Below are positions 41,372 to 64,000 of a DNA stretch of 64,000 nucleotides, piece by piece. This DNA is from Thalassobaculum sp. OXR-137 (GTDB taxonomy: Bacteria; Pseudomonadota; Alphaproteobacteria; Thalassobaculales; Thalassobaculaceae). Each line of letters begins with the position of its first letter. Positions within the stretch are counted from its first letter, which is position 1. Under the pieces are notes generated by a model. That model ran no database searches, was not told the origin of the DNA, and worked only from the letters and a program-made list of their open reading frames with translations. A program made the translations under genes and the position numbers. The stretch spans positions 3,270,001 through 3,334,000 of the forward strand of contig NZ_CP139715.1 in the NCBI RefSeq assembly GCF_034377285.1. Direction: 5' to 3'.

Positions 41372-41382
41372 GAGAGCCCCGC

Positions 41383-42300: not shown

Positions 42301-43202
42301 CCGAACCGCGTCCCGGCATGGACCATGATCTCTATCGCTATTCGGCGATGGACCGGCGTCCGGCGATCTCCTGGCCCGACGGCAACGGGCTCGCCTTCAC
42401 CGTGCTGCTGCACCTGGAGTTCTGGCGGCTCGAGCCGCCCAAGGAGGATTGGCGCGACCCGCGCTATCAGGGCGCGTTCGGCAATTTCTACCCGGACTAC
42501 ACCGGCTACACCCAGCGCGAATACGGCAACCGCATCGGCATCTTCCGGGTGCTCGACCGGCTCGACCGGTTCGGCCTGAAGCTGACGGTGCCGGCCAACG
42601 CCTCGGCGCTGAAGCGCTATCCGGCCATCGTCGAGCGTCTGATGGACCGCAAGGTCGAGTTCGTCGCCGCCGGCACCCATTCCGACCGGATGATCACCTC
42701 CAAGCTCGACGCCGACGCCCAGCGCTGGATGATCGACGAGAGCCTGGAGACGGTGGAGCGCATCACCGGCCAGCGGCCGACCGGCTGGGCCGGCCCGGCC
42801 TATGGCGAGAGCGAGATCACCGCCGGCCTGCTGGCCGAGTTCGGGCTCGACTACGTCATGGACTGGCCGAACGACGACCAGCCCTACATGCTCACCACCA
42901 AGCCGTCCCTGGTCTCCATCCCGCGCCAGCCCGAATGGGACGACGGCGAGATCATGTGGCTGCGCAAGGTGCCGCGCGAGACCTGGGAGGAGATGGTCGT
43001 CTCAGCCTTCGACCGGCTCTACGAGGAGCGGGCGGGGGGACGGTATTTCTCGCTGTCCCTGCATCCCTGGATCGTCGGCCAGTTCCACCGCATCCGCTTC
43101 CTGGAGCAGGTGCTGGAGCGCATCGCGCCGGCGCGCGACGGCGTCTGGCAGACCACCGCCGGCGACGTCGCCCGGCACTTCCGCTCCCTGCAATCCGACT
43201 GA
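42297..43202 (+). CDS. Polysaccharide deacetylase-family protein, PuuE-like (copy 3 of 3)
   Basis: 301 aa. QREYGNRIGIFRVLDRLDRF, DYVMDWPNDDQPYMLTT and LHPWIVGQFHRIRFL align with copies 1 and 2. The His-Gly loop (SHGMYN / GHGRTN) is changed to AAGTHSDRM, so its active site differs and it could be a non-catalytic partner or have another specificity. Translation is coupled to copy 2 (ATGA overlap), suggesting a heteromeric complex. Confidence 0.82.
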   Translation: MTEPRPGMDHDLYRYSAMDRRPAISWPDGNGLAFTVLLHLEFWRLEPPKEDWRDPRYQGAFGNFYPDYTGYTQREYGNRIGIFRVLDRLDRFGLKLTVPANASALKRYPAIVERLMDRKVEFVAAGTHSDRMITSKLDADAQRWMIDESLETVERITGQRPTGWAGPAYGESEITAGLLAEFGLDYVMDWPNDDQPYMLTTKPSLVSIPRQPEWDDGEIMWLRKVPRETWEEMVVSAFDRLYEERAGGRYFSLSLHPWIVGQFHRIRFLEQVLERIAPARDGVWQTTAGDVARHFRSLQSD

Positions 43203-43240: not shown

Positions 43241-43921
43241 ATGGCCACCGCAGGCATCGACAATGTCGACTACATCCGCGCGTTCATGACCGAGCGCCCG
43301 GTGGAGTTCGAGCGCTCCGCCCTGGTGATCGTCGACATGCAGAACGCGTCGGGCTCGCGCACCGGCGCGCTCGGCCGCCGGATGAAGGCGGAGGGGTCGA
43401 CCTCCACCGATTACCGCTTCGACCGGATCGAGAAGCTCGTGGTGCCGAACATCCGCCGCATGCTGGACGGCTTCCGCGCCAAGGGCGGCGGCGTGGTCTA
43501 CGTCACCCTCGGCGCCCAGCGCGAGGATGCCGCCGACGCCCCGCCGCACATGCGCAAGATGTTCCAGGAGACCAACAACTGGGTCGGCAGCGAGGAGCAC
43601 AAGGTCGTCGCCGGCCTGGAACCGCAGCCGGGCGAACTGATCGTGCGCAAGACCAGCATCGGCGCCTTCGCCTCCACCGGGCTCGACCACCTGCTGCGCT
43701 CGATGGGTTGGGACAATCTCTACATGACCGGCGTGTCGACCAACATGTGCGTGGAGACCACGGCCCGCGAGGCGGCCGACCGCGGCTATCACGTGACCAT
43801 GGTGGAAGACGGCTGCGCCACGACGCGGAAAGAGCTGCACGAGGGCACGATGCAGAACTTCCAGCGCCTCTTCGGCCGGGTGCGCAGCACCGATGAGGTG
43901 ATGTCGGAGTTGAATCTCTGA
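43241..43921 (+). CDS. Isochorismatase-fold cysteine hydrolase (second)
   Basis: 226 aa. Triad: Asp32 in LVIVDMQNASG, Lys137 in LIVRKTSIGAFASTGL, Cys170 in TGVSTNMCVETTAREA. The cis-peptide region GVSTNMC and DMQN fit ureidoacrylate/peroxyureidoacrylate (RutB-like) and related amidases. AAGGAGA precedes ATG 43241. Last gene of the lyase operon; parallels the deacetylase + isochorismatase pairing at 24306-26013. Confidence 0.85.
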   Translation: MATAGIDNVDYIRAFMTERPVEFERSALVIVDMQNASGSRTGALGRRMKAEGSTSTDYRFDRIEKLVVPNIRRMLDGFRAKGGGVVYVTLGAQREDAADAPPHMRKMFQETNNWVGSEEHKVVAGLEPQPGELIVRKTSIGAFASTGLDHLLRSMGWDNLYMTGVSTNMCVETTAREAADRGYHVTMVEDGCATTRKELHEGTMQNFQRLFGRVRSTDEVMSELNL

Positions 43922-44164: not shown

Positions 44165-45430
44165 TCACCGCGCCGCCGCCAGCTCCACCGAGGCGAGGCC
44201 GGCGATCACGTCCTCGATGGTGTCCAGCGCCTGGGTGAGGGCGTCGATCGGGATGGTCAGGGGCGGCAGCAGCTTCAGCACCTCGTCGTCCGGCCCGCAG
44301 GTCTCCGCAATCACGTCGCGCGCGAAAAGCTGCCGCGAGACCAGGGCGGCGGTGCCCGGTCCCTGCAGCACCAGCCCGCGCATGAACCCGCGTCCGCGCA
44401 GCCCGGCCACATGCTCCGGCCAGCGGGCGGCGATGGCCTCCAAGCGGTCGTCCAGAATGTCGATCTTCTGCGCCAGGTCGTCCTGGAACGCCCGGTCCTC
44501 CCAGTAGCCCAGCGCCGCCTCCGCCGCGACGAAGGCGAGATTGTTGCCCCGGAACGTGCCGTTATGCTCCCCCGGCTCCCAGACGTCGCGCGACGGCTCG
44601 ATCAGCAGCAGCGCCATGGGCAGGCCGATGCCGCCGATGGATTTCGACAGACAGACCAGATCCGGCTTAAGGCCGAACGGCTCGAAGCTGAAGAAACTGC
44701 CGGTGCGCCCGCATCCCGCCTGGATGTCGTCGATCGCGAGCAGGGCGCCCGACCGCTCGGCCAGGGCCTGCACCCGCAGCAGCCAGTCGGCGGACGCCGC
44801 CCGCAGGCCGCCTTCGCCCTGCACCGTCTCCACCAGGAAGCAGGCCGGCGCGTCGATGCCGCTGCCCGGATCCTCGATGGCGCGTTCCAGGAAATCGAGC
44901 ATGTCGGCGGTGCCGTAGCCGTCAAAGGGCAGGCGCAGCACCCCCGGCAGCGGCTGGCCGGCGCCGCGCCGCTTGTCCCGGTTGGCGGTGGCGGCGAGCG
45001 CGCCGAGGGTCATGCCGTGGAACCCGCCGGTGAAGGCCACGATCGTGGCGCGGCCGGTCGCCTTGCGCGCCAGCTTCAGCGCCGCCTCCACCGCGTTGGT
45101 GCCGGTCGGGCCGGTGAACATGACCCGATGCGGCATCCCGCGCGGCTCCAGGATCACCCGGCGGAAGCGTCGTAGGAATGCCGCCTTGGCCTCGGTGTGC
45201 AGGTCCATGGCCTGCACGATCCCGTCATGGGCGAGATAGTCGAGCACCGCCCGTTTCAGGGTCGGATTGTTGTGGCCGTAGTTTAGGGCGCCGCAGCCGG
45301 TGAGCAGGTCGGTCAGGCAGCGGCCGTCCTCGGTGAAGACCTGATGCCCGATCGCCCGGGTGAACAGGGCGGGGAAGCTGCGGCAGTAGGAGCGGACACG
45401 GGATTCGGCGAGGTCGAAGATGTCGTGCAT
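44165..45430 (-). CDS. Diaminobutyrate-2-oxoglutarate aminotransferase (EctB-like)
   Basis: PLP class III aminotransferase, 421 aa. ESRVRSYCRSFPALFTRA and GCGALNYGHNNPTLKRAVLDY are hallmarks of EctB/DABA aminotransferases, which make L-2,4-diaminobutyrate from aspartate semialdehyde. PLP contacts appear in GPTGTNAVEAALKLARK, IDDIQAGCGRTG, and the Lys in LSKSIGGIG. No ectA or ectC is adjacent. It lies 76 bp downstream of the NRPS operon in the same direction, so supplying a diaminobutyrate building block is a strong possibility. An AT-rich stretch (about 45460-45485) upstream may hold its own promoter. Confidence 0.85.
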   Translation of the reverse strand: MHDIFDLAESRVRSYCRSFPALFTRAIGHQVFTEDGRCLTDLLTGCGALNYGHNNPTLKRAVLDYLAHDGIVQAMDLHTEAKAAFLRRFRRVILEPRGMPHRVMFTGPTGTNAVEAALKLARKATGRATIVAFTGGFHGMTLGALAATANRDKRRGAGQPLPGVLRLPFDGYGTADMLDFLERAIEDPGSGIDAPACFLVETVQGEGGLRAASADWLLRVQALAERSGALLAIDDIQAGCGRTGSFFSFEPFGLKPDLVCLSKSIGGIGLPMALLLIEPSRDVWEPGEHNGTFRGNNLAFVAAEAALGYWEDRAFQDDLAQKIDILDDRLEAIAARWPEHVAGLRGRGFMRGLVLQGPGTAALVSRQLFARDVIAETCGPDDEVLKLLPPLTIPIDALTQALDTIEDVIAGLASVELAAAR

Positions 45431-45506
45431 GGGTCGGACTCCCGGACCGAAGCTGGCTTGAATAATATATTACTCTATTCTGAAAATGCGCGTCATGCGA
45501 GCATAA

Positions 45507-46589
45507 CTATCGAACGGCTCGAAAATCCTGGCCGATGCAGAGATAGTCGCCGGTGCCGGTCATCTCCAAGCGCGGCGGACTGACGGTCAGGGCGAAGTCG
45601 TGCGCCAGCAGGTCGCGCAGCCAGCGGTCCTCGGCCCGGGTCCAGGGGCCGTAATGGAACTCCCCCAGGATCCAGGTGGCGCCGCGCAGCACGTCGCGCG
45701 CCGGCGCCAGGTCGAATTCTCCCCCCTCGATGTCGAGCTTCAGACCGTAGGGCCGCCGAGGATCGAAAAGCGTGCCGAGGTCGACCGCCGCCACCCGGGT
45801 CGTCGAGGCCTGGGCATGAGAGGTCACGGTGGAATGGATCATGCTGGTCGCCTCGGCGGAGGCGGCGAGGCTCGACAGGGCGACCGTCCCTGCCGAGGCG
45901 GCGACCGCGCCCTCCACCACCCGATGCCGGATCGGCTGGCCCGATCCGCGGAGATTGGCCCGCAGATAGCGCAGGTTGGCCGGGTCCGGCTCGACCGCCA
46001 CGATCTCGGCTTCCGGGTAACAGCTATGCAGGTACAGCGCCGACAGGCCGATATAGCCGCCCAGGTCGTAGATCGCGTCCACCGGCCGGCGCGCGTGGTC
46101 GTAATTGGCCTGCAGCAGGACCTCGAACAGGTTGCCGTAGGCCATCCAGTCGGCTGGCATGTCGATGCGGTAGCGCCGCTCGTTGATCAGCACCGACAGG
46201 GTGGTCGGCCGCAGCTGGAAGTCCCGGCACAGCGCGGCGGCGGCCTGGGCCACGCGGGTCAGCCAGTCGGCGGTATCCGCATCGGCGGCGACCGTCCCGA
46301 TCGCCTCCGGCGCCCGGGCCAGACCGTCCGTCAGCTCCGCTGCATCCCGGGCGGCCTCCTCCCGGCCGCGGTCGAGCTGGTCCGGCGACAGACCGCCGAT
46401 GCGGCACAGGATCGGATCCGCGGTGTCGCCCATCTCCGATTTCCCGCCGTATTGCGCCAGGCAGACGGCGAGCTCGTCGCGCGGCAGGCACCGGGCGATG
46501 CGGCGAAACCCATCGTGGAAGCGCCGCGCCGGATGGTCCGGCGTCTCCATGCATAGCCGGCAGTCGCAGCTTTCGGCCAGGTCCGTCAT
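45507..46589 (-). CDS. FkbM-family methyltransferase with Cys-rich N-terminal extension
   Basis: 360 aa. The C-terminal 230 residues are a FkbM SAM-methyltransferase: IYDLGGYIGLSALYLHS (motif I), IVAVEPDPANLRYLRANL, the family-typical KLDIEGGEFDLAP and GEFHYGPWT. The first 130 residues are extra and start with a CDCRLC cluster. The start overlaps the TPR-glycosyltransferase stop (ATGA) with GGAGG upstream, placing it in the NRPS operon as a likely tailoring enzyme, perhaps O-methylating the peptide or an attached sugar (inference). Confidence 0.83.
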   Translation of the reverse strand: MTDLAESCDCRLCMETPDHPARRFHDGFRRIARCLPRDELAVCLAQYGGKSEMGDTADPILCRIGGLSPDQLDRGREEAARDAAELTDGLARAPEAIGTVAADADTADWLTRVAQAAAALCRDFQLRPTTLSVLINERRYRIDMPADWMAYGNLFEVLLQANYDHARRPVDAIYDLGGYIGLSALYLHSCYPEAEIVAVEPDPANLRYLRANLRGSGQPIRHRVVEGAVAASAGTVALSSLAASAEATSMIHSTVTSHAQASTTRVAAVDLGTLFDPRRPYGLKLDIEGGEFDLAPARDVLRGATWILGEFHYGPWTRAEDRWLRDLLAHDFALTVSPPRLEMTGTGDYLCIGQDFRAVR

Positions 46590-47689
46590 CGCCCTGCCTC
46601 CACCAGCGCGGCGAGATCCGCCGCCATGGCTTCGAACACGCCGCGCCAGTCGCCCGGTCCGGCCTGCCGGTAGACCCGGGCGGTCGGGAACCAGGGGGTC
46701 CGGTCTCCGTCCCGGCCCCAGCGCCAGTCGGGGATGAAGGGGGCGGCGACCCAGACGGCGGCTCCCATGGCGCCGGCGAGATTGGCGACGGCGGTGTCGA
46801 TGGCGACGACCAGGTCGAGCCCGGCGATGGCGGCGGCGGTATCGGCGAAATCGCGCAGACCGCCGGCCAGGTCTTCCACCGCCATGCCCGTCGGCGGGGG
46901 CGAGAGCTGCGTGCGGGGGGCGCCGACCTGCAGGCTGTAGAGACGGACGCCGGGGACTTGCGCCAGCGGCGCCATGGCGGCCAGGGCGGCGCTCTTGTCG
47001 CCGACCTCCCAATGGGCCGCGGCACTGGCCCAGACCAACCCGACCTTCAGCCCGCCGGAGGGCAGAGGCCGCGGATCGGCGTGGAGATAGGGGCCGGACC
47101 AGGTCTCGCCCTGGAGCAGGCCGTACAGCGCGGCAACTTCCGCGGTCTGGACCTGGTAGTCGCTCTCCGGCACGTCCGCATCCAGCGGCAGCACCCGGGC
47201 GACGCCCGACAGCGACCGGAACAGCCGCACCAGGGCCGGGCGGCATTGCAGGGTCACCTCGGCTCCGGTCCGCTCGGCCAGCATCGAAACGAACCGGGCG
47301 TAGAGGATGTCGTCTCCGTACCCGCCGCCCCAGGCGACGACGGACTTTCCCGCCAGCGGCTCGCCGGTCCAGCGCGGGACCGGGTGCAGCGGCGGGCCGA
47401 AGGCGTCGGCCCGGCAGCAGTCGAGGAGAAGCTGCCCGCCGCGCCGGACGTCGCCTGCCAGCAGATGCAGGCGGATCAGCAGGGAGACGGCGGCGTCGCC
47501 GGCGCCGTCGAGGGATTCCAGCAGGCGGATCGCGGTGGCGTAGTCGCGCCGCTGATAGGCGATCACCGCGGCGAGCTGGCGGATCGGTCCGTAGCCGCCG
47601 TCCAGCGCCGCCTGGGCATGGGCGGCGGCGGCCTCCAGGTCCTTGTCCTCGAAGGCGGCGAAGGCGAGGGCGGCCCGATGTGCGCTCAT
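46586..47689 (-). CDS. TPR-repeat protein with glycosyltransferase (GT-B) domain
   Basis: 367 aa. About the first 90 residues are helical TPR-like repeats (AALAFAAFEDKDLEAAAAHA, IAYQRRDYATAIRLLESLDG). The rest resembles the C-terminal domain of TPR-glycosyltransferases related to GT9/GT41: VVAWGGGYGDDILYARFVSM, KVGLVWASAAAH and GLDLVVAIDTAVANLAGAMG, where the Asp-Thr-Ala loop corresponds to the nucleotide-sugar site. ATG 47689 overlaps the thioesterase stop (ATGA) and has GGGAGG. It may glycosylate the peptide product, or be a related non-sugar enzyme. Confidence 0.78.
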   Translation of the reverse strand: MSAHRAALAFAAFEDKDLEAAAAHAQAALDGGYGPIRQLAAVIAYQRRDYATAIRLLESLDGAGDAAVSLLIRLHLLAGDVRRGGQLLLDCCRADAFGPPLHPVPRWTGEPLAGKSVVAWGGGYGDDILYARFVSMLAERTGAEVTLQCRPALVRLFRSLSGVARVLPLDADVPESDYQVQTAEVAALYGLLQGETWSGPYLHADPRPLPSGGLKVGLVWASAAAHWEVGDKSAALAAMAPLAQVPGVRLYSLQVGAPRTQLSPPPTGMAVEDLAGGLRDFADTAAAIAGLDLVVAIDTAVANLAGAMGAAVWVAAPFIPDWRWGRDGDRTPWFPTARVYRQAGPGDWRGVFEAMAADLAALVEAGR

Positions 47690-48474
47690 GACCGGCCTCC
47701 CGGGGTCTCCGCCGCGACCGGCGCGTGGCCGCGCAGGCACCGGGCGACCGTGTCGAGCAGGACGCGGCGCTGGCCGTGCAGGAAGAAGTGGTCGCCGGCG
47801 AACATGCGGATCTCCGCCGGTCCTCTCGTGGTTTCTCGCCAGGCCTCCACCCCCGCCGGATCGACCTCGCCGTCGTCGCGGCCGCCGAGCGCGGTGATCG
47901 GACAGGCCAGCGGCTCGGCCCGCTGCCGTCGGTAGGTTTCGCTCAGTTCGAAATCGCAGCGCAGCAGCGGCAGGACCATCTTCATCAGTTCGGGCTCCTG
48001 AAGCACCGGGGCCGGCGTGCCGTTGAGGACCCGCAGTCGCTCCTGGAACGCCGGCTCGGACAGGTGGTAGCTGGGGGGGCGGTTCAGGGGCAGGTGCGGG
48101 GCCCGCTGGCCGGAGACGATCAGATGCACCGGCCCGCCGCCCTCGGCCTCGAGGGCGCGTGCGGTCTCGTAGGCGATGACCGCGCCCATGGAATGGCCGA
48201 ACAGAGCGTAGGGGCGGTCCAGATGCGGCCGCAGCCGGTCGAGCAGCACGGGAAGCAGCCGGTCGACCTGGCGGAAGGCCGGCTCGCCGATCCGTTCCTC
48301 GCGCCCCGGCAACTGCACCGCGCAGACCTCCAGCCAGTCCGGCAGGGCCTCGCCCCAGGTGCGGTAGATCGAGGCGCCGCCGCCGGCATAGGGCAGGCAG
48401 AACAGGCGCAGGGCGGCGTCGGGACGGGGCTGGGCGGGGCGGATCCACGGATCGGAGGGCAGGGGGGCGGTCAT
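47686..48474 (-). CDS. Type II (editing) thioesterase of NRPS cluster
   Basis: Alpha/beta hydrolase, 262 aa, typical GrsT/SrfAD-like size. LFCLPYAGGGASIYRTW is the conserved N-terminal motif, Ser95 is the nucleophile in LFGHSMGAVIAYE, and GDHFFLHGQ carries the catalytic His. Such enzymes clear wrongly primed or stalled carrier domains. It overlaps both neighbours by four bases, and GGGGAGG precedes ATG 48474. Confidence 0.92.
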   Translation of the reverse strand: MTAPLPSDPWIRPAQPRPDAALRLFCLPYAGGGASIYRTWGEALPDWLEVCAVQLPGREERIGEPAFRQVDRLLPVLLDRLRPHLDRPYALFGHSMGAVIAYETARALEAEGGGPVHLIVSGQRAPHLPLNRPPSYHLSEPAFQERLRVLNGTPAPVLQEPELMKMVLPLLRCDFELSETYRRQRAEPLACPITALGGRDDGEVDPAGVEAWRETTRGPAEIRMFAGDHFFLHGQRRVLLDTVARCLRGHAPVAAETPGGRS

Positions 48475-51053
48475 GCCGACCTCCCCGTTCTGGCCAGCAC
48501 CGCCTGCAGCAGAGCGAGGTTGGCGCTGAAATGCGGCTCGATCAGCATCTCGCCATGGCCGCCGGCGCCGTTGCAGGCGGTGAAGCGTCCGGTCGTCGCT
48601 TCCACCCAGGCGGATTGGCTGGACAGCACGGTGCCGGCCGCGTCGCGGTGCTCGTCCGCGCCGCCGGCGCTGCGGATCAGGTGGATGTCGGCGGCGACCG
48701 GCCGGTCCTCCGAGAGGGACGACAGATAGGCGTAGTACCGCCGGATCCGTCTGCGGGCCTTGTCCCGCAGGACGCCGGTGCCGACCGCCGCGGCGACGCT
48801 CTCATCGGCGAGGAAGGAATCCGCCAGCCGGTCGGCCTCCTCCGGCGGAAAGGCGAAGGGCCGCAGGAAGCGGGAGGCGTCCAGCATCACGATGTCGCTG
48901 ACCGTCCGGCCCCGCCGCTCGAGCTCCGACGTCACCTGGAACGCGATGTTGCCGCCGCCGGAATAACCGAAGAGCAGGACCGGCCCCTCAGGCTGCACCT
49001 CGGCGATCAGGTCGGCGATGTCGGCGATCCGTGTCTCTGCCTCGATGAAGTTGAAGGCGTGGACGTCGACTCCGTCCAGCCCCGCCGCCAGCCGGGCGTA
49101 GCCGAGCGTGTCGCTGGTGCCGGGGGGCAGGGCGAAAAGCGGACGACCGCCCCTCGGCGCGTTCAGCAGCACCCGGGGCCGGTCGAGGGCGTCGATCCCG
49201 AACCTTGCGGCGTCGAGGATCGCCTCGGCCTGGCTGCGGATCGTGGGATGGGTGAAGATGGAGGCGAGCGGCAGGGCGACCCCAAGCTCGCCGGCGATCA
49301 GCGACACCAGCTTGGCGGCGGTGAGGCTGTGGCCGCCCAGGGCGAAGAAATCGTCGGTGACGCCGATCCTTTCGCGGTCGAGCACCCGTTCCCAGAGACT
49401 GACCAGCGAGGTTTCGGTCTCGCTTGCCGGCGGTTCCGGGGGCTGGGCGCCGTCCGGGTTCGAGGCGGCCGGGAGGGGCAGGGCGGCGCGGTCGACCTTG
49501 CCGTTCGCGTTCAGGGGCAGGGCGTCGAGCCGGACGATATGGGCCGGGACCATGAAGTCCGGCAGGGTCGCGCCGAGATGCCGGTGCAGGTCGCCCGTCC
49601 CGATGGCTTCACTCGCTGCCACGTAGGCGACGAGCTCCCGGCGCCCCGGCGCGATCTCCCGGGCCAGCGCGACGGCCGCGGTGACGCCGGGATACCGCAA
49701 GAGGGCCTCTTCGATCTCTCCCGGCTCGATGCGGAAACCGCGGATCTTGATCTGGTCGTCGAGCCGGCCGAGGAACTCGATCGTGCCGTCGCTGCGCCAG
49801 CAGGCGAGGTCGCCGCTGCGGTAGAGCCGTTCGCCGGGCAGGGCCGGGCTGGCCACGAAGCGCTCGGCGGTCAGCTCCGGATCGTTCCAGTAGCCGAGCG
49901 CGAGGCCGTCGCCGCCCAGATAGAGTTCCCCGGCGGTGCCCGGCGGCAGCGGCCGGCGCTCCTCGTCCAGGACATAGGCGGTGGAATTGGCGATCGGGCG
50001 GCCGATCGGGATCGAGCCCCGGTAGTCGCCGGGCGCGATCGGGAAGCAGCAGGAGAAGGTGGTGTTCTCGGTCGGGCCATAGCCGTTGACGAGGGCGCAC
50101 TTCGGCAGCAGCTCCAGGGCCCGTCGGATATGGGCGACCGACAACGCCTCGCCGCCGACCAGCAGCTGTTTGAGCGGGTGCAGGCCCTCCGGGTGCTCGT
50201 CCATCATCAGGTTGAACAGACCGGCGGTAAGCCACAGGGTCGTCACCCCTTCGTCGGCGATCACCGCGCCCAGCTCCCGTGGGCCGAGCCGTCCCTCCGG
50301 CGCCAGGGCCAGACGGGCGCCGTTCAGCAGCGGCCCCCAGATCTCGAACGTGGCCGCGTCGAAGGCCGCCGGCGCGTATTGCAGGAAGATCCGGTCCGGC
50401 GAGAAATCGGCGTAATCGGCGTTGCGGACCAGCCGGACGACGGCACGATGGGGCACGGCGACGGCCTTGGGACGGCCAGTGGAGCCGGAGGTGTACATGA
50501 CATAGGCGAGCTCGCCGCCGGCGGCCGTGACGGGCGGAGTGTCGTCCGGACCGGCGTCGATGGCAGACCGCTCGGCGTCGAGGCGGATCCGGCGGACCGG
50601 CGGCGGTGCCGCGTCGTCCGTCCCGCCGTCTCGGTCGATCACGGCCAGCGCCCCGGAATGCGACACAATCAGATCCCGGCGCGCCGCCGGATAGGCCGGG
50701 TCGAGCGGCAGATAGCCGGCCCCGGCCTTGAGGGTCGCCAGCATCGCGACGATCAGGTCGACCGATCGCGGCAGCGCGAGCGCGATCAGCCTGCCCCGGC
50801 AGTCCGGCAGCCGCGCGCGGAGATACCGGGCGAGCCGGTTGGCGCGGCGGTCCAGTTCGGCGTAGGTCACGGCCCGGCCGCCCCGGCTGAGGGCGACCGC
50901 CTGCGGTGTGCGCGCCGCCTGCTCGGCGAACAGGTCGGCGACGCCGCGGTCGCGCGGGTAGGGCCGCGTCGTCGCGTTGAAACGCGCGGCCAGGGCCGCG
51001 GCCTCCGCCGATCCCGCCGCGTCGTCGATCAGGGTGAATTTAGACAGTCTCAT
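48471..51053 (-). CDS. NRPS terminal protein A-T-TE (valine-type adenylation)
   Basis: 860 aa, the termination part of the assembly line. Residues 1-35 resemble a condensation-adenylation linker (LAARFNATTRPYPRD); adenylation about 36-525 with YTSGSTGRPKAVAVP, YRSGDLACW and NANGKVDR; carrier Ser576 in FFALGGHSLTAAKL; type I thioesterase about 620-860 with Ser698 (GYSGGG), Asp725 and His833. Specificity residues by alignment to GrsA are D232 A233 F236 W274 L298 G300 G324 T332 F333 K519, close to the valine code. ATG 51053 has GGGAGGA five bases upstream and overlaps the previous gene by 14 bp. It lacks its own condensation domain, which ends the preceding protein. Confidence 0.92.
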   Translation of the reverse strand: MRLSKFTLIDDAAGSAEAAALAARFNATTRPYPRDRGVADLFAEQAARTPQAVALSRGGRAVTYAELDRRANRLARYLRARLPDCRGRLIALALPRSVDLIVAMLATLKAGAGYLPLDPAYPAARRDLIVSHSGALAVIDRDGGTDDAAPPPVRRIRLDAERSAIDAGPDDTPPVTAAGGELAYVMYTSGSTGRPKAVAVPHRAVVRLVRNADYADFSPDRIFLQYAPAAFDAATFEIWGPLLNGARLALAPEGRLGPRELGAVIADEGVTTLWLTAGLFNLMMDEHPEGLHPLKQLLVGGEALSVAHIRRALELLPKCALVNGYGPTENTTFSCCFPIAPGDYRGSIPIGRPIANSTAYVLDEERRPLPPGTAGELYLGGDGLALGYWNDPELTAERFVASPALPGERLYRSGDLACWRSDGTIEFLGRLDDQIKIRGFRIEPGEIEEALLRYPGVTAAVALAREIAPGRRELVAYVAASEAIGTGDLHRHLGATLPDFMVPAHIVRLDALPLNANGKVDRAALPLPAASNPDGAQPPEPPASETETSLVSLWERVLDRERIGVTDDFFALGGHSLTAAKLVSLIAGELGVALPLASIFTHPTIRSQAEAILDAARFGIDALDRPRVLLNAPRGGRPLFALPPGTSDTLGYARLAAGLDGVDVHAFNFIEAETRIADIADLIAEVQPEGPVLLFGYSGGGNIAFQVTSELERRGRTVSDIVMLDASRFLRPFAFPPEEADRLADSFLADESVAAAVGTGVLRDKARRRIRRYYAYLSSLSEDRPVAADIHLIRSAGGADEHRDAAGTVLSSQSAWVEATTGRFTACNGAGGHGEMLIEPHFSANLALLQAVLARTGRSA

Positions 51054-57000: not shown

Positions 57001-60000
57001 CACGCCGAACGCCAGCCCGGCCCGGCGGGCCTGGGCGACGATCTGGACGCTGAGGATCGAGTCCCCGCCCAGGGCGAAGAAGTTGTCGTCCCGCCCGACG
57101 CGGTCGCGGCCCAGCACCGCCGCCCAGATCCCGGCCAGCACCGTCTCGCGCGGCGTGCGCGGTGGGGTGTAGTCCTCCGGCGCGGCCCCGGGCGCGGGTT
57201 CCGGCAGGGCCTTGCGGTCGAGCTTGCCATTGGCATTGAGCGGCAGGGCGTCGAGCACGATCAGGTGGGCCGGGACCATGTAGTCGGGCAGGTCGGCCCG
57301 CAGCTCGGCGCGCAGTGCGTCGGCATCGAGGCCGGGGCCGGCGGCATAGCCGACCAGCCGTCGGTGTTCGCCCTCGCCGGTCAGCAGGACCACGGCATCG
57401 TCGACGCCCCGGCAGCGGCGCAGGGCGGTCTCCACTTCGCCGAGCTCGATGCGGAAGCCGCGCAGCTTGATCTGGTGGTCGCTGCGGCCGAGGTATTCCA
57501 CGGCGCCGTCCTCACGCCACCGGCACAGGTCGCCGGTGCGGTAGAGCCGGCCGAGCTCCGGATGGGCGACGAACCGGTCCGCCGTCAGCTCCGGCTGTCC
57601 CAGGTAGCCGTCGGCGAGGCCGTCGCCGCCCAGATGGAGTTCTCCCGCGACCCCGACCGGGACCGGCTGGCCGTCGGGGTCGAGGATATGGGCGGTGGTG
57701 TTGGCGAGCGGCCGGCCGATGGGGACGGTGACGGCGCCCTGCGGCACGTCCGTCACATGCTGCCAGGTGGCGAAGGTGGTGCATTCGGTGGGGCCATAGA
57801 CGTGGAGCAGGCGGGTCGGTCCGCCGGCGGCGAGCACGGCGCGCACCGGGCGGGGGTCGACCGCCTCGCCGCCGAACAGCAGCGTGTCGAGCCCGGCGAA
57901 GACGGCCGGGTCTATCTGGGCGAGGCGGTTGAACAGGGCGGTGGTCAGGAACAGGATGTCGACGGTCTTCGCCCGCAGCAGCCCGGCGAAGCGGTCGGGG
58001 TCGAGCACATCGTCGCGCGCCAACAGGACCAGCGCGGCACCGTTCAGCAGGGCGCCCCAGATCTCGAAGGTGGCGGCGTCGAAGGCGGTGTTGGCCGCCT
58101 GGGCGATCCGCTGGCCGGGGCGGATGTCGACATAGTCGGTATCGCGCACCAGCCTGGTCACAGCCCGCTGGGGGATGAGCACGCCCTTGGGCTGGCCGGT
58201 GGAGCCGGAGGTGTACATGACATAGGCGCGGTTGGAGCCGTCCGTCGTCACCGCCGGGACCGCGGCGGTGCAGGCGGCGATCGCCTCGGCTTCCTGGCCG
58301 AGGAGCACCACCGGACAGGGCAACCCGTCCAGCCCGTCGGCGAAGGCGTATTCCGTCAGGACCAACGCGGCACCGGCATCGTCCACCATGTAGCGCCGGC
58401 GGGCGTCCGGCAGTTCCGGGTCCAGCGGCAGGTAGGCGGCTCCGACCTTCAGAACCGCGACCATCGCGACGATCAGCTCCGGTCCGCGCTCCAGGCACAG
58501 GCCGATCACCCGGCTGCGGAGATCGCCCGCCTGGTCGCAGAGATAGGCGGCCAGCCGGTCGGAGCGCGCGTCCAGCTCGGCATAGGTCAGGGTGCGGTCG
58601 CCCCAGCGCAGTGCCACGGCCTGCGGATCGGCGGCGACCCGCTCGGCGAACAGGGCCGCCAGGCTCTCGTCGCGCGGATAGGGGCTCGCCCCGCCGCTCC
58701 ACGACGCGATGCGGGCCTGCTCGTCGGCGTCGAGCAGCGGCAGGCGGCCGACGGCCCGCTCCGGCGCCTCCGCCACCGCCTGCAGCAGGCGGACATACTG
58801 TCGGGCCAGGCGCTCGATGCGCGGCCGGTCGAACAGGTCGGTGCTGTATTCCCAGCTGACGCTCAGCCCGCCCGGTCCGGCCTGGGCGCTGACGGTCAGG
58901 TCGAACTTTGCGGTGCCGGTCTGCGGCGCCAGGGCGCGGACCGCGAGGTCGCCCAGGGTGAGGTTCTCCTCCGGGGCGTTCTGCAGGCCGAACATGACCT
59001 GGAACAGCGGCGTGTGGGACAAGGAGCGCTCCGGGCGAAGCTCGGAGACCAGGGTCTCGAAGGGCAGGTCCTGATGGGCATAGGCGTCCAGCGCGGTCGC
59101 CCGGACCTGGGCCAGCAGCTCGGCGAAGGGGTCGTCGCGCTGCACGGCGGTCCGCAGGACCAGGGTGTTGACGAAGAAGCCGACGAGATCCTCGGTCTGG
59201 CGCTGGGTGCGGTTGGCGATCGGGCTGCCGACCAGGATGTCGCTCTCGCAGGTGTGGCGGTGCAGCAGGGCGGCGAAGCCGGCCAGCAGGGTCATGAACA
59301 GGGTGGCGCCGCGGGACCTGCCGAGCGCCTCCAGCCGGGCGAGCAGATCGGGCTCGATTGTGACGGCGAGCTGGGCGCCGCGGGCGGACCTGAGTGCGGG
59401 GCGTTTGCGGTCGGCGGGCAGGTCGAGCAGCAGGGGAGCGTCGGCCAGCTGCGACCGCCAGTAGCCGAGCTGGCGGTCGAGAACCGTCCCCTCCAGCCAG
59501 CCGCGCTGCCAGGCGGCGTAGTCGGCATAGTGCAGGGCAGGTGCGGGCAGGCCAGGCCCCTGACCCAGGGCCTCGGCGTAGAGCGCGCCGAGATCGCGGA
59601 CCAGCACGCCGAGAGACCAGCCGTCGGCGGCGATGTGGTGCAGGTTGACCAACAGCACATGGCGGTCCGGACAGAGCCGCAGCAGGGTCAGGCGCAGCAG
59701 CGGGTCGGCCTCCAGGTCGAAGGGCTGGGCGGCATGGGCGGCGACGCGCGCGTCCACGGCGGCGTCTCGATCGGTTGGGTCCAGGGCGGACAGATCCTCC
59801 ACCAGCAGCGGGTCGAAGGGGTCGCGCAGGGAGAGGACGGGCTGGCCGGCCTGTTCGTGCAGGGACAGGCGCAAGCTCTCGTGGCGCCCGGTCAGCGCGA
59901 TCAGCGCCCGGCGCAGGGCCGCCTGGTCCATCGCGCCGTCCAGCGCCAGGGCGGCGGTGACGTTATAGGCCGCACTCGACGCGGACCCGTCCAGCTGGCC

Positions 60001-63000
60001 CCTGTCCATCTGGCTGAGGAACCAGAGCCTTTGCTGGGCGAAGGAGAGCGGCAGGCTGTCGCGGTGCGCGCGCGGCGTGATCGGCGGTGGCGGGGGAGCG
60101 TCGGCGCCTCTGCGCGCGGCCTCGATCGCGGCGGCCTGATCGCCAAGCACCGGGTGCTCGAACAGCAGGCGCAGGGGAATGTCGACGTCGAAGGCCTGGC
60201 GGATGCGGGAGACCAGCTGGGTCGCCAGCAGGGAGTGGCCGCCCAGATCGAAGAAGTTCTGCCCGCGGCCGACACGCTCCAGCCCCAGCACCTCGGCCCA
60301 GAGCCCGGCCAGCAGCTCCTCCTGCGGCGTCGCGGGGCGGTCGTCGGCGGGACCCTCGGCGCTCTCGGCCGGCGCCGGCAGGGCATTCCGGTCGAGCTTG
60401 CCGTTGGCATTGAGCGGCATCGCGTCGAGCACGATCAGGTGGGCCGGGACCATGTAGTCGGGCAGGTCGGCCCGCAGCTCGGCCCGGATCGCGTCGGCAT
60501 CGAGACCGGGACCGGCGGCATAGCCGACCAGCCGGCGGTGTTCGCCCTCGCCGGTCAGTGCGACCACGGCATCGTCGACGCCGCGGCAGCGGCGCAGGGC
60601 GGTCTCCACTTCGCCGAGCTCGATGCGGAAACCGCGCAGCTTGATCTGGTGGTCGCTGCGGCCGAGGTATTCCACGGTACCGTCTTCGGTCCAGCGGCAC
60701 AGGTCGCCGGTGCGGTAGAGCCGGCCGAGGGTCGGATGGGGGATGAACTTCTGTGCCGTCAGGTCGGGCTGTCCGAGGTAGCCCTCGGCCAACCCGTCGC
60801 CGCCCAGATGCAGCTCGCCGGCGATCCCGACCGGCACCGGCTGGCCGTCTGTATCGAGGATATGGACGGTGGTGTTGGCGAGCGGCCGGCCGACGGGGAC
60901 GGTGACGGCGTCGTCCGGCACGGCCGTCACCTGGTGCCAGGTGGCGAAGGTGGTGCATTCGGTGGGGCCGTAGACATGCAGCAGGCGGGTCGGCCCGCCG
61001 GCCGCCAGGATCGAGCGGACGGGTCGCGGATCGACTGTCTCGCCGCCGAACAGCAGGCTGTCCAGCCCGCCGAACACGCCCGGATCGATCTGGGCGAGGC
61101 GGTTGAACAGGGCGGTGGTCAGGAACAGGATGTCCACCCTCTGCGCCCGCAGCAGCCCGGCGAAGCGGTCGGGGTCGAGCACGTCGTCGCGGGACAGCAG
61201 GACGAGGGCGGCGCCGTTCAGCAGCGCGCCCCAGATCTCGAAGGTTGCGGCGTCGAAGGCGGTGTTGGCCGCCTGGGCGATCCGGTGGTGGGGGCGGATG
61301 TCGATATAGTCGGTATCGCGGACCAGCCTGGTCACGGCCCGCTGGGGGATCAGCACGCCCTTGGGCTGACCGGTGGAGCCCGAGGTGTACATGACATAGG
61401 CGAGGCTGGACCCGGCGGTCGCCACGGCCGGGACCGGATCCGTGCAGGCGGCGATGGCGTCGGCGTCGCGGTCGAGCCGGATGACCGGGCAGGGCAACCC
61501 GTCCAGCGCGTCGGCGAAGGCGTCTTCGGTGACGACCAGGGCGGCGCCGGCATCGTCCACCATGTAGCGCCGCCTTGAGTCGGGCAGCTCCGGGTCCAGC
61601 GGCAGGTAGGCGGCCCCGACCTTCAGAACCGCGACCATCGCCACGATCAACTCCGGTCCGCGCTCCAGGCACAGGCCGATCACCCGCCCACAGAGATCGC
61701 CTTCTTGTGCGGTCAGATAAGCCGCCAGCCTGTCGGATCGGGCGTCCAGCTCGGCATAGGTCAGGGTGCGGTCGCCCCGGCGCAGCGCCACCGCCTGCGG
61801 TTCGGCGGCGACCCGTTCGGCGAACAGGGCGGCGAGGCTCTTGTCGCGCGGATAGGGGCTCGCCCCGCCGCTCCAGGACGCGATGCGGCGGCGTTCCCCG
61901 CGGTCGAGCAGGGCGAGGCGTCCCACCGCAATCTCCGGGTCTGCCAGCGCGCCTTCCAGCAGCCGGATCAGATGGCGGCCCATCCGGGCGATCCCCACCT
62001 CGGCGAAGCGGGCGGCGTCGTAGGTGAGCGTGAGGAGCAGGCCGCCGTCATGCTCGGCGAACTCGAAGATCAGAGCGTATTTCGCCGGACCGGGGGCGGT
62101 GGGAAACCCCTCGACCCGCAACCCCGCGATCGGGGCGGACGCGCCCGTCATGTTCTGCAGCGCCACCAGCACGTCGAAGACCGGCGGCCGGCCGCCGTCG
62201 CGCGGGACGCCGAGCTCCTCCACCAGCCGGTCGAACGGGTAGTCCTGGCGCTCGAGCGCCGCGTAGACGGTGCCGGCGACCCGGTCGAGCAAGGAGTGGA
62301 ACCCCAGGGCCGGATCGATCTCGTCCCGCAGGGCGACGAGATTGACGAACTGGCCCACCAGAGGTTCGAGCGCCGCGCTGTCCCGGCCGGCCACCGGCGA
62401 TCCGACCGTCACGTCGCGCTCGCCGCCGTAGCGATGCAGCAGCAGCTTCACCAGGGCGGTCAGGGCCATGAACAGGGAGGCGTCGTGGCGGGTGGCGAGC
62501 CGGCGCAGGCCGGCGGTGTGGACCGCGTCGAGGTGGATCTGATGGCTGGCGGCCGGCGCCGGGCCCGGTTGCGGCCGGCGGGACAGCGCCGGCAAGTCGA
62601 GATGCGGCGGCAGGGGCGTCAGGACCTTTCGCCAGTAGTCCCGCGCCGCGTCCGTCGCGGCCAGCGCCTCCGGCCGGCGCTGCCCGGCGGCATGGGCGCC
62701 GTAGCTGGCGCTCAGGTCGGGAAGGTCGGGCTCGCGTCCGTCGAGATGAGCCCGGTAGCGCAGGGCGAGTTCCTGCTGGATCAGTTCCAGGGACCAGCCG
62801 TCGGCGACGCTGTGATGGATGTGCAGGGCGAGGACCCAGTCCGCCTCCGCCAGGCGGCAGAGCTGCACCCGCCAGAGCGGCGCGCGGCCGAGATCGAACG
62901 GACGTCGCGCCGCCGTCTCCAGCAGCGCCCGGCAGGCGGCCTCCGGCTCGGCCGCATCGCGCAGGTCGACCGGTTCCAGCGGCAGGGCGATCGCCGGCTC

Positions 63001-63312
63001 GACGATCTGGGTCAACTCCCCGTCGGCCTCGGCGAAGCGGGTGCGCAGGCTGTCGTGCCGGCGGGCGATGCCCTCGAGGGCGGCGCGGACCGCCGCGTCG
63101 TCCAGCGGCCCGCGCAGGCGCAGGGCGCGGGTGATACCGTAGGCATCCGCCGCGCGATCCATCTGGGCGAGGATCCAGATCCGCTGCTGGGCGAAGGAGG
63201 CGGGATAGACGCGGGGCGCCGAGGCGTCCGCAGTCCGGCGCGGCGGAGGGGTGCCGGATTTCGCGGTGGCGGGCGGCGTCTCGAGATCCGCGGGAAGGGC
63301 GTTGTCCGACAT
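51040..63312 (-). CDS. Multimodular NRPS, C-A-T-C-A-T-E-C-A-T-C
   Basis: 4,090 aa. C1 (HHSVADG, 166-172), A1 (480-975), T1 Ser1027; C2 (HHIAADG, 1225-1231), A2 (1538-2033), T2 Ser2085 (LGGDS, usual before E); epimerase E (HHLAVDAVSW, 2272-2281; NYLGQLD 2488-2494); C3 (HHLLLDG, 2748-2754, expected D-L type), A3 (3065-3565), T3 Ser3618; C4 (HHIIGDG, 3799-3805). A1 and A2 share code DAFFLGVTFK (near Ile/Val codes); A3 reads D3271 F3272 W3275 N3314 I3340 G3342 M3368 V3376 H3377 K3561, the threonine code. ATG 63312 follows AGGAGGG, 3 bp after the upstream NRPS stop. A3 holds a Pro-Ala linker insert (3206-3217). Confidence 0.95.
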   Translation of the reverse strand: MSDNALPADLETPPATAKSGTPPPRRTADASAPRVYPASFAQQRIWILAQMDRAADAYGITRALRLRGPLDDAAVRAALEGIARRHDSLRTRFAEADGELTQIVEPAIALPLEPVDLRDAAEPEAACRALLETAARRPFDLGRAPLWRVQLCRLAEADWVLALHIHHSVADGWSLELIQQELALRYRAHLDGREPDLPDLSASYGAHAAGQRRPEALAATDAARDYWRKVLTPLPPHLDLPALSRRPQPGPAPAASHQIHLDAVHTAGLRRLATRHDASLFMALTALVKLLLHRYGGERDVTVGSPVAGRDSAALEPLVGQFVNLVALRDEIDPALGFHSLLDRVAGTVYAALERQDYPFDRLVEELGVPRDGGRPPVFDVLVALQNMTGASAPIAGLRVEGFPTAPGPAKYALIFEFAEHDGGLLLTLTYDAARFAEVGIARMGRHLIRLLEGALADPEIAVGRLALLDRGERRRIASWSGGASPYPRDKSLAALFAERVAAEPQAVALRRGDRTLTYAELDARSDRLAAYLTAQEGDLCGRVIGLCLERGPELIVAMVAVLKVGAAYLPLDPELPDSRRRYMVDDAGAALVVTEDAFADALDGLPCPVIRLDRDADAIAACTDPVPAVATAGSSLAYVMYTSGSTGQPKGVLIPQRAVTRLVRDTDYIDIRPHHRIAQAANTAFDAATFEIWGALLNGAALVLLSRDDVLDPDRFAGLLRAQRVDILFLTTALFNRLAQIDPGVFGGLDSLLFGGETVDPRPVRSILAAGGPTRLLHVYGPTECTTFATWHQVTAVPDDAVTVPVGRPLANTTVHILDTDGQPVPVGIAGELHLGGDGLAEGYLGQPDLTAQKFIPHPTLGRLYRTGDLCRWTEDGTVEYLGRSDHQIKLRGFRIELGEVETALRRCRGVDDAVVALTGEGEHRRLVGYAAGPGLDADAIRAELRADLPDYMVPAHLIVLDAMPLNANGKLDRNALPAPAESAEGPADDRPATPQEELLAGLWAEVLGLERVGRGQNFFDLGGHSLLATQLVSRIRQAFDVDIPLRLLFEHPVLGDQAAAIEAARRGADAPPPPPITPRAHRDSLPLSFAQQRLWFLSQMDRGQLDGSASSAAYNVTAALALDGAMDQAALRRALIALTGRHESLRLSLHEQAGQPVLSLRDPFDPLLVEDLSALDPTDRDAAVDARVAAHAAQPFDLEADPLLRLTLLRLCPDRHVLLVNLHHIAADGWSLGVLVRDLGALYAEALGQGPGLPAPALHYADYAAWQRGWLEGTVLDRQLGYWRSQLADAPLLLDLPADRKRPALRSARGAQLAVTIEPDLLARLEALGRSRGATLFMTLLAGFAALLHRHTCESDILVGSPIANRTQRQTEDLVGFFVNTLVLRTAVQRDDPFAELLAQVRATALDAYAHQDLPFETLVSELRPERSLSHTPLFQVMFGLQNAPEENLTLGDLAVRALAPQTGTAKFDLTVSAQAGPGGLSVSWEYSTDLFDRPRIERLARQYVRLLQAVAEAPERAVGRLPLLDADEQARIASWSGGASPYPRDESLAALFAERVAADPQAVALRWGDRTLTYAELDARSDRLAAYLCDQAGDLRSRVIGLCLERGPELIVAMVAVLKVGAAYLPLDPELPDARRRYMVDDAGAALVLTEYAFADGLDGLPCPVVLLGQEAEAIAACTAAVPAVTTDGSNRAYVMYTSGSTGQPKGVLIPQRAVTRLVRDTDYVDIRPGQRIAQAANTAFDAATFEIWGALLNGAALVLLARDDVLDPDRFAGLLRAKTVDILFLTTALFNRLAQIDPAVFAGLDTLLFGGEAVDPRPVRAVLAAGGPTRLLHVYGPTECTTFATWQHVTDVPQGAVTVPIGRPLANTTAHILDPDGQPVPVGVAGELHLGGDGLADGYLGQPELTADRFVAHPELGRLYRTGDLCRWREDGAVEYLGRSDHQIKLRGFRIELGEVETALRRCRGVDDAVVLLTGEGEHRRLVGYAAGPGLDADALRAELRADLPDYMVPAHLIVLDALPLNANGKLDRKALPEPAPGAAPEDYTPPRTPRETVLAGIWAAVLGRDRVGRDDNFFALGGDSILSVQIVAQARRAGLAFGVRDLFRHQSVAALAPHVSEAGLPLAADSDPAETSGPVALSPVQSWFFAWDLAKPGHFNQALLLRPRDRIAPDALAAAARAVLARHGALRLRFERGPEGWRQTVAPMPDVLPVHREDLRDLRDLPESDRTTALTDRATRWNRSLDLAAGPLTRLVLFELPDGQRLLWCIHHLAVDAVSWRILLADLESACLQARAGTTPVLPPPTAGIADWIGYLHRRAQDPARAAELDHWRGWPAAAPLPKDDPDAPARWDSTAHVRFALSRPRTADLLERAPAAFNTRINDLLLAALALALGDWTGRTDWPIVLESHGRPADPDAPDLTATVGWFTALYPVRFDLPEDGDPAATVKAVKERLRAVPGDGLAYGIARHGPWAVPGPLPEAEIAFNYLGQLDIGMAVGESGGGFFLPAREGTGETQCLDGTRPHALDVNAMVVGGTLRVSISYSDRQYRRANVEALARHLEDALDRLIALCCDPARCGYTPSDFPLARLDQGRLDALARREGRGIAALYPLSPMQQGMAYHSLLDASPERQTDAAYFEQMTWRIGPPFDPSAFRRAWTALVERHPVLRTALWLETEPPLQIVRRSVDLPWRELDWHDRGAEAQKAELETLLASDRRRGVDLSRAPLLRCTLIRLGADSWRFVLGFHHLLLDGWSLPLLFADLMALYAAPAADLAPAAPYEDYIAWLQRQDHGAARDHWHAAVGDVEAPTPLPPALGPVPEADGAGARGEMLFALDAEDSQLLSDTTRRRRLTLSTLLQAAWAVVLSRTSGESDVVFGTTLSGRDIDLPGIERMVGLFINTVPLRVSTEDGPVGAWLQALQDRHQENSLHGFLPLAEIQRGSAVPAGDALFDSLLVFENYPSEPAEGAAAAGGPSFADGQAIDHTNYPLTLIAASVEDRLRLRVGYDATRFAPRDIERIVGFLRVALRRLAEAEPEDPLDAIGILTRAERQGLLAAGGAQVRLDVGETLTSRVAAQTAEGPDRIAVTCGAQSLTYAQLDARAEAIGRHLRKLDAGPEKIVGLYLPRSADLVAGMLGILKAGAAYLPIDPATPAERVAFMLRDAGAVALVTETGLRAGLGELDLPCLCLDALCVDALCPDAADPSGPVPAPAPAPAPDDLAYVIYTSGSTGTPKGVMISHANVLRLFDATNPDCGFGPQDVWTLFHSAAFDFSVWEIWGALLHGGRLVVVPEEVQRDPTLFHGLLERERVTVLNQTPSAFRQLIPVARERGACLALRMVIFGGEALDLPSLRPWFALYGDSAPLLVNMYGITETTVHVTWRRLCEADCDTPASLIGRPLRDLDLHLLDRRGEPVPDGVTGEIHVGGAGLARGYLNRPELTAERFVVREIDGEPTRLYRSGDLARRRPDGDLEFLGRADRQVKLRGYRIETGEIEAVLSRHPGVRQAVVVAQQDEGRLIAYAVADPETAAELRDWASTRLPAYMVPALVVPIDAVPLTRNGKLDHRALPRPETSRSVEAAAGVPPGTETERRLAAIWRDVLGVEVAGIDDGFFDLGGHSLKAVQVVARIRREFGVEVSLAAFLRRPTIAALAPLTGGPSTADGAIAPVADRADYPLSHAQHRLWLEDRLHGDARYTMPAAVELREPLDPDALRLALGRLIERHETLRTVFVEVAGEPRQTVLNRIEVPLDVVDLPAGDDDASAIVERESRRRFDLDRPPLFRITLVRRTALPPVLILAMHHIIGDGWTMQVFHRELAAFYAAARTGGTPDLAPLAIQYRDYAVAQQQRDREADAAFWADHLAGLDGPIRLPRDATDGAGGDRRSLRLSPACTARLRALAAAQGSTLSALILTIFTLFLHRLTRQDDLCIGMAVANRGRPELEPLLGMFVNLLPIRIRIEDDMDVAALLQAVTRTAYAALDHQDHPYDLILRAQRRDAGSGDLVRVVYAFQNAAEPDGMAEPAATTVPLSFPFAKFDLSLIVEDPGPHLDLTLEFDAGLLTAATVERYLHSLNRFAEDIAAGPPREDSDETV

Positions 63313-63315
63313 GAC

Positions 63316-64000
63316 CTAGCCCTCCTGTCCGGCGACGGCCGGCTGCCGGGGGTCCGCCGTGGGTGCCGGCAGGGTGGCGTTCAGGGTTGCGGCCAGGGAG
63401 CGCACGGTGCCGTGGGGGAACAGGTCGGGCAGCGTCGCCTCGACGCCGAAGGCCTGATAGAGCCGGGACAGGACGCGGATCGCCTTCAGGGAGTCGCCGC
63501 CCAGATCGACGAAGCCGTGGGTCGCGCCGACCTTCTCCAGCTCCAGCACCTCGCCCCAGATCGCCGCGATCCGCGTCTCGGTCTCGCCTTGGGGGGCGAC
63601 ATAGGGCGCGTCGCGGTACAGCAGGTCCGCCGGCCGGGGCAGGGCGCGCCGGTCCACCTTGCCGTGCAGGTTCAGCGGAAACCGGTCCAGCTGCATCAGG
63701 TAGGCCGGCTGCATCGCGGCGGGCAGCCAGTCGTCCAGGTGCCGGCGCAGGTCGGCGGCGGCGACCGGCGCGTCGGCGATGTAGTAGGCGGTCAGGCTCG
63801 GGTCTCGGGCGGTGGCGGGGTTGACCGCGACGACGGCCGCCCGGACCGCGGGATGCTTCAGGATCGCCCCCTCGACCTCGGCCAGTTCGATCCGGGTGCC
63901 GGCGATCTTGACCTGCCCGTCCCGGCGGCCGAGCAGTTCGACCACATGGCCGGCGAGATACCGTCCCAGGTCGCCGCTGCGGTAGATCGTGTCCGGGGTC
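63316..64000 (-). CDS. Upstream NRPS protein, C-terminal part (A-T; 5' end beyond window)
   Basis: Only the last 227 codons are in the window. IYRSGDLGRYLAGH and GRRDGQVKIAGTRIELAEVE are adenylation core motifs A8 and neighbours; LNLHGKVDRRALPRP is A10. The carrier follows with DLGGDSLKAIRVLSRL (Ser for phosphopantetheine), then a 35-residue tail. The substrate-determining region lies outside, so residue X cannot be predicted. The stop is 3 bp from the next start, so the proteins should be co-translated. Confidence 0.93.
   Translation of the reverse strand, partial: TPDTIYRSGDLGRYLAGHVVELLGRRDGQVKIAGTRIELAEVEGAILKHPAVRAAVVAVNPATARDPSLTAYYIADAPVAAADLRRHLDDWLPAAMQPAYLMQLDRFPLNLHGKVDRRALPRPADLLYRDAPYVAPQGETETRIAAIWGEVLELEKVGATHGFVDLGGDSLKAIRVLSRLYQAFGVEATLPDLFPHGTVRSLAATLNATLPAPTADPRQPAVAGQEG

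Follow-up and report, generated by a model that had tools for sequence, protein, structure and literature searches.

A genomic-island NRPS/PKS cluster of Thalassobaculum sp. OXR-137: the probable last third of a lipopeptide line in the window, with an AsnB-linked adenylation station and homogenised aliphatic domains

A hybrid nonribosomal peptide synthetase (NRPS) and polyketide synthase (PKS) cluster has been described on genomic island GI13 of Thalassobaculum sp. OXR-137, whose genome comprises 5.65 Mb in 3 replicons (Major et al. 2025, PMC12016528); statements about published work, here and below, refer to excerpts of the papers cited. In that account, antiSMASH found 12 NRPS and 3 PKS modules with one acyltransferase (AT) missing, an N-methyltransferase, an epimerisation (E) domain and two thioesterases (TE), while the figure legend includes CAL and carrier domains and names hydroxymalonyl-CoA. 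A cyclic-peptide ABC exporter is followed by a prohibitin/SPFH gene, the best matches lie in Nisaea and other Thalassobaculaceae with none in other Thalassobaculum, and the nearest known cluster is that of tubulysin A (6% similar), the product not being known (PMC12016528). Here we analyse a stretch of 64,000 nucleotides from the same organism (positions 3270001-3334000 of the 5.46 Mb contig C1; hereafter the window) together with the flanking chromosome, in a genome of 5,646,840 bases and 3 contigs. The synthetase genes that run through the right-hand end of the window almost certainly belong to the GI13 cluster, as module counts, the missing AT and the exporter with its prohibitin gene all agree and no difference was seen. 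A preliminary description of the window had recognised no known product, which accords with the published antiSMASH result, but the cluster itself was already in print and is therefore no longer a discovery as such. The two features on which we concentrate, an AsnB-linked station and a set of homogenised aliphatic adenylation domains, are not described in the passages of PMC12016528 examined, and a term search of its main text found no asparagine, FkbM, glycosyltransferase or diaminobutyrate.

Extending the window to the right, as had been suggested, recovered the remainder of an adenylation-carrier protein (g5), an asparagine-synthase-type amidotransferase (AsnB, g4), three large synthase genes (g3, g2 and g1) and an exporter. 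We read the window's synthetase genes as the closing third of a lipopeptide line made up of a fatty acyl-AMP ligase (FAAL), PKS and NRPS modules, with a probability of roughly 85%; the line is taken to be a hybrid lipopeptide line because the pathway opens with a FAAL and PKS modules. Transcription runs in the order g1, g2, g3, g4, g5, g6, g7, a type II thioesterase, a 367-aa protein, an FkbM-family gene and an EctB-type gene. The total is 12 NRPS and 3 PKS modules, of which four lie wholly inside the window and a fifth only with its tail, so that the earlier view of the window as the end of a pathway stands while its estimate of a C-terminal half does not. Condensation (C), adenylation (A) and carrier (T) domains recur in repeated modules, as in a modular type I NRPS, and core motifs are mostly intact across the line. 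All 13 condensation-family matches found in the 5.65 Mb genome fall inside the cluster, between 3321046 and 3366502, and chance is therefore no issue. Adenylation codes were taken from an alignment to a stretch of GrsA, and g2 was scanned in two overlapping pieces. The core proteins that follow g1 are given below in window coordinates unless the genome is named; limits of individual g6 domains are approximate, and "//" in later domain orders marks a break between separate proteins.

Genome C1 3342929-3366721: g2, 7930 aa, seven NRPS modules, the sixth of which includes a methyltransferase domain
Genome C1 3337065-3342932: g3, 1955 aa, ketosynthase (KS)-AT-ketoreductase (KR)-acyl carrier protein (ACP)-C
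Genome C1 3335191-3337062: g4, asparagine-synthase-type amidotransferase (AsnB)
Genome C1 3333316-3335148: g5, 610 aa, A-T; its last 227 residues, the end of the A domain and the carrier, are window 63316..64000, minus strand
51040..63312, minus strand: g6 (P0001), NRPS of 4090 aa, C-A-T, C-A-T-E, C-A-T, C
61873..63207, minus strand: g6 C1
60313..61815, minus strand: g6 A1, code DAFFLGVTFK, predicted Ile (or Val)
60103..60300, minus strand: g6 T1 carrier
58708..60060, minus strand: g6 C2
57139..58641, minus strand: g6 A2, code DAFFLGVTFK, predicted Ile (or Val)
56929..57126, minus strand: g6 T2 carrier
55513..56865, minus strand: g6 epimerisation domain, motif HHLAVDAVS at residue 2272, after the second module
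54133..55461, minus strand: g6 C3, whose start resembles C domains taking a D-configured donor (judged by eye from the motif)
52630..54087, minus strand: g6 A3, code DFWNIGMVHK, predicted Thr
52360..52542, minus strand: g6 T3 carrier
51073..52305, minus strand: g6 C4, whose expected partner is the A-T of the next protein, g7
48471..51053, minus strand: g7 (P0003), 860 aa, A-T-TE, A code DAFWLGGTFK, predicted Val
about 48474-49145, minus strand: type I thioesterase (PF00975) of g7

Within the window, the domain order and codes previously assigned to four modules were borne out by Pfam and by our own alignment, all on the minus strand. Pfam matches in g6 comprise 3 AMP-binding domains, 3 carrier domains and 5 stretches of the condensation family, which their motifs divide into 4 C and 1 E, and the PF00975 match in g7 supplies the terminal type I thioesterase that had been noted. 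The module described as unknown is likewise real, in that a module tail precedes g6, but it belongs to g5, a separate protein. DAFFLGVTFK corresponds to Ile, with some Val, in cyanopeptolin synthetase, and DFWNIGMVHK to Thr there (PMC2533009), the latter reading being supported also by PMC12283262; the g7 code is read as Val because it lies close to the Val codes DALWIGGTFK and DAWWLGGTFK (PMC12283262). Together with the E domain after the second module and the Thr code of the module that follows it, both of which agree with the preliminary description, these codes support a predicted chain end of X-Ile/Val-D-Ile/Val-Thr-Val.

Upstream of the window, g1 (3320 aa) has the order FAAL-ACP, KS-AT-KR-ACP, KS-KR-ACP, its second PKS module having no AT. 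The head of the line carries PF00501, PF23024 (DIP2-like) and PP-binding matches, the DIP2-like domain being one that we take to mark a FAAL, so that the line starts with a FAAL and an ACP. The seven modules of g2 carry the codes DVQFVAHVV, DLKNVGSDVK and DAMHVGGVTK (modules 1-3) and DAFFLGVTFK, DAFFLGVTFK, DIWEMTADDK and DFWNIGMVHK (modules 4-7), and the methyltransferase domain of module 6 sits between A8 and A10. The code of module 6 is presumably one for 2,4-diaminobutyrate (Dab). Val236 and Gln239, common to most Pro domains (PMC12283262, section 11), are both present in DVQFVAHVV, and DLKNVGSDVK is listed for homoserine (Hse/Hsl) domains (PMC12283262). In g3 the AT motif is HGFH here and HAFH in both orthologues. 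The divergent ABC exporter at the upstream end scores 351.8 bits against a cut-off of 286.2 for TIGR01194, the cyclic-peptide exporter family, and is adjoined by a Band 7/SPFH gene.

G006 and G030, two species that belong to a different genus within the family, show the same arrangement, with matching genes running in the same order from the exporter to the EctB-type gene. Identities to the OXR-137 proteins (genome G000 in our comparisons) are 52-76% overall in the alignments displayed: 58-67% for g1, 63-66% for g2, 59% for g3, 73% for AsnB, 66-68% for g5, 58-62% for g6 (leaving out a 54% match to the lone contig end L032, which belongs to g2), 61% for g7, 66% for the type II thioesterase and 72-76% for the exporter. 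FkbM is 52% identical in G030, the G006 copy lying below the 52% display limit. Among the matches listed for g5, from 61 genomes including its own, the best match reached at least 66% only in G000, G006 and G030, and the five other members of the same genus gave nothing better than E 2.5e-81. Four of 385 genomes in a class sample matched g5 at E<=1e-120 (G000, G006, G280 and G375), as did 2 of 398 in a phylum sample at E<=1e-110 (G000 and G006). A scan of genome contigs with g5 added one further relevant locus (L021, 39%; a weak 25% match, L022, was set aside), and all 1896 records of a plasmid search stayed below 60% identity, the best of the 15 matches listed reaching 37.8%.

These data suggest how the line may work. 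The FAAL of g1 would activate a fatty acid, and two PKS modules, the second without its own AT, would extend the acyl chain. Pro (with some doubt), Hse, one further residue X, Ile, Ile, N-methyl-Dab (again with some doubt) and Thr would then be added by g2, with Dab supplied by the EctB-type enzyme encoded at the end of the gene row. By adding one ketide unit to Thr and reducing it, g3 would create a statine-like unit, and its C domain would pass the chain on to whatever residue g5 has loaded, a building block that AsnB probably amidates or supplies. Finally, g6 and g7 would append Ile, an Ile turned to the D form by the E domain, Thr and Val, after which the g7 thioesterase would release the chain. 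The predicted chain is acyl-Pro-Hse-X-Ile-Ile-(NMe)Dab-Thr-ketide-Y-Ile-D-Ile-Thr-Val; what we observe are the genes, their domain order, the codes and the gene order shared with other species, and what we infer is every substrate, whatever AsnB, FkbM and the 367-aa protein do, and whether the TE cyclises or hydrolyses. The fragment can now be read as a complete plan from which a mass series can be predicted and tested, and two misreadings, the half pathway and the Thr ring considered below, are removed.

The step at g4 and g5 looks unusual. The whole g5 protein yields the code DVRHLALLAK, and Pfam finds only an A and a carrier domain in its 610 residues, which leaves little room for an insert (an AMDH domain was not searched for). 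The pocket reads DVRHLALLA in all six loci compared, down to 39% protein identity, whereas within these lines the codes for aliphatic residues vary between species. The order C // AsnB // A-T recurs in each of the five loci with enough flank (G000, L029, L031, L056 and L021), and in all five AsnB keeps Cys2 and the SGGLDSS motif; these are three genomes of one family, one genome of another family in the same class and one metagenome-assembled genome (MAG). The sixth pocket locus, L058, is too short to show the preceding gene, and AsnB was not seen for it. The station has thus been met in two alphaproteobacterial families and a distant MAG; a third family has the pocket as well, with no change of residue in any of them. 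Variations on the arrangement occur, with A-T fused to further modules in L056 and L021 and a methyltransferase gene between AsnB and A-T in L021. That MAG, labelled Helicobacter cetorum (isolate SulCav), holds a row of NRPS genes with the AsnB station and a methyltransferase, and its species label looks doubtful. A tie between AsnB and the preceding PKS module was considered and rejected, as the protein before AsnB in G280 (L056) and in L021 ends in an NRPS module and a C domain.

Two explanations of this station deserve weighing. AsnB may make ordinary Asn, or top up its pool, for a g5 domain that takes Asn, or something close to it, in the usual manner, which we regard as possible if short of probable. 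In line with it, AsnB scores 423.5 bits against the general asparagine synthase model (cut-off 267), and DPRHVSLLAK, near the g5 code, is listed for Asn domains (PMC12283262, section 12). However, the g5 pocket is unlike the printed Asn codes DATKVGEVGK and DLTKIGEVGK, and the genome has a second asparagine synthase that scores better (456 bits; genome C1 3478948-3480504).

Alternatively, the side-chain carboxyl of an acidic amino acid could be the group that g5 loads, leaving a free alpha-carboxyl for AsnB to amidate and placing a backbone residue of the isoasparagine or isoglutamine type between the statine-like unit and the window Ile; we offer this only tentatively and consider it doubtful. 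The recurrent gene order, the invariant pocket and the conserved AsnB motifs all speak for it. Arg239 is typical of side-chain-activating A domains, and fabclavine is the sister compound of zeamine, with a homologous cluster. A literature search did not find the g5 code itself and matched only the form DPRHLALLAK, predicted for 2-aminoadipate in the first A domain of zeamine synthetase (PMC3547906). The nearest printed codes found, this one and DPRHVSLLAK, belong to acidic or amide residues. A side-chain-tethered Asp exists (PMC13126170), while a literature search for two side-chain-activating codes found neither, nor did either appear in the excerpts of a microcystin paper. Counting against side-chain loading, the zeamine 2-aminoadipate assignment is itself only a prediction, fabclavine contains 2,3-diaminobutyrate at a position that the excerpts do not state (PMC5709968), and the sole isoasparagine route found in print, that of cystobactamid, uses an aminomutase domain and not AsnB (PMC7966384). 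A more general proposal makes C // AsnB // A-T a portable station of NRPS lines, where a glutamine-dependent amidotransferase would turn a side-chain-loaded acidic residue into a backbone isoasparagine- or isoglutamine-type amide; it is speculative and on balance unlikely. Whichever residue it handles, an AsnB-linked A-T station with an invariant pocket offers biochemistry a small, defined target, and one assay could name its substrate.

A second feature of the line concerns its aliphatic A domains. Compared across some 1.0-1.2 kb surrounding the A5 motif, all four Ile A domains of OXR-137 (window 57139-58641 and 60313-61815, and g2 modules 4 and 5) share 87-89% identity among themselves, and a set of four from G006 shares 81-87%, whereas identity between the two genomes is 71-75%. 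For three of the G006 domains the adjoining sequence gives the position (beside g5, beside module 6 and ahead of an E-type stretch), and that of the fourth, on the lone contig L036, is inferred. Thr A domains, which served as a control, show 75-77% between orthologues of OXR-137 and G006 or G030 but 67-72% between paralogues within a genome. Aliphatic A domains have therefore been homogenised within each of two genomes, a case of concerted evolution, while Thr domains follow orthology. For the first module of g6 in OXR-137 the likeness to the others is confined to the second part; the match begins near base 1331-1425 of 3195, so that replacement did not reach the C domain. Repeated independent duplication of aliphatic A domains would be another route to such likeness within genomes, but the four kept positions speak for conversion. 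The homogenisation offers a natural example, controlled internally by the Thr domains, of how a line keeps several positions alike while species diverge.

Beyond g7, the gene row continues on the minus strand with four further genes:

47686..48474, minus strand: stand-alone (type II) thioesterase, 262 aa
46586..47689, minus strand: 367-aa protein
45507..46589, minus strand: FkbM-family methyltransferase, 360 aa
44165..45430, minus strand: class III aminotransferase of EctB/DAT type (2,4-diaminobutyrate supply), 421 aa

The FkbM assignment in the preliminary description agrees with ours, scoring above curated cut-offs. The 367-aa protein, on the other hand, could not be substantiated as the TPR-glycosyltransferase it had been called: it has no Pfam match at E<=5, no NCBIfam match and no credible match in the PDB (best E 0.34), and a TPR_16 match below threshold (E 0.55) is seen in one of the two orthologues. 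A single-sequence model with mean pLDDT 46 is confident only in the first ~50 residues, which form paired helices as in TPRs. Counterparts in the same position in two other species are 66-67% identical to it, and those of the EctB-type enzyme 70-71%. The EctB-type enzyme clears the broader DAT model PRK09264 comfortably (577.7 v. 438 bits) and is the sole TIGR02407 match above cut-off in the genome. Ectoine biosynthesis as its purpose is only weakly rejected, since the ectoine synthase search gave no match here but none in any control genome either. Beyond it, on the other strand, lie an isochorismatase-family gene (43241-43921, plus strand) and two polysaccharide-deacetylase-type genes (40855-43202, plus strand). 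Rfam and tRNA scans of the window gave no match, and a promoter and terminator scan at the divergent start on the exporter side gave no promoter-like site. Opposite g6 runs an antisense open frame of 3110 aa (window 52246-61578, plus strand); plus-strand open frames of this kind were taken to be by-products of GC-rich coding DNA and not genes.

Several observations weigh against reading the window as the end of a working lipopeptide line. No product or expression is known. The comparison genomes G006 and G030 are drafts whose clusters are spread over separate contigs, leaving gaps in g2 and g6 where contigs end. The C domains of g2 modules 1 and 2 read HHSIVDFRS and HHIVSDRWS instead of HHxxxDG, the codes of g2 module 3 and g5 have no substrate assignment, and no exact match to DIWEMTADDK was found in print. 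As for Dab supply, the EctB-type enzyme passes TIGR02407 by a narrow margin (553.1 and 552.8 v. 552.2 bits), and the search for ectoine synthase, which found no match in the genome, likewise found none in the control genomes. The absence of a known product, the missing AT in g1 and the two departing C motifs might suggest a cluster decayed or silenced by mutation, yet the large frames are open, most core motifs examined are present, two other species keep the gene order and conservation extends to most codes, which makes decay improbable. A cyclic depsipeptide closed on the window Thr, as proposed in the preliminary description, can scarcely be entertained even with a type I TE and an exporter of the cyclic-peptide family at hand, and is rejected on ring size, because Thr (g6 A3) directly precedes the C-terminal Val (g7) and the lactone would have seven ring atoms, too small for a feasible macrocycle, while better nucleophiles lie upstream, outside the window, in module 2 (homoserine code), the PKS hydroxyls and the Thr of module 7.

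Beyond the published GI13 cluster, three known systems bear comparison with the lipopeptide line proposed here. The first A code of zeamine synthetase differs from that of g5 at 1 of 10 positions and the Thr code is shared (PMC3547906), although zeamine and fabclavine have another architecture, with a fatty-acid/polyketide polyamine part (PMC3547906, PMC5709968), and the terms "asparagine syn" and "amidotransferase" are absent from PMC3547906. The isoasparagine linker of cystobactamid resembles the station in its stand-alone NRPS module and unusual Asn-derived residue, but that residue is made by the AMDH domain of CysH and not by an AsnB (PMC7966384). In microcystin synthetase, A domains of McyB1 and McyC have likewise been exchanged without their C domains (PMC2174460), whereas here the aliphatic A domains of one line have been homogenised within each genome.

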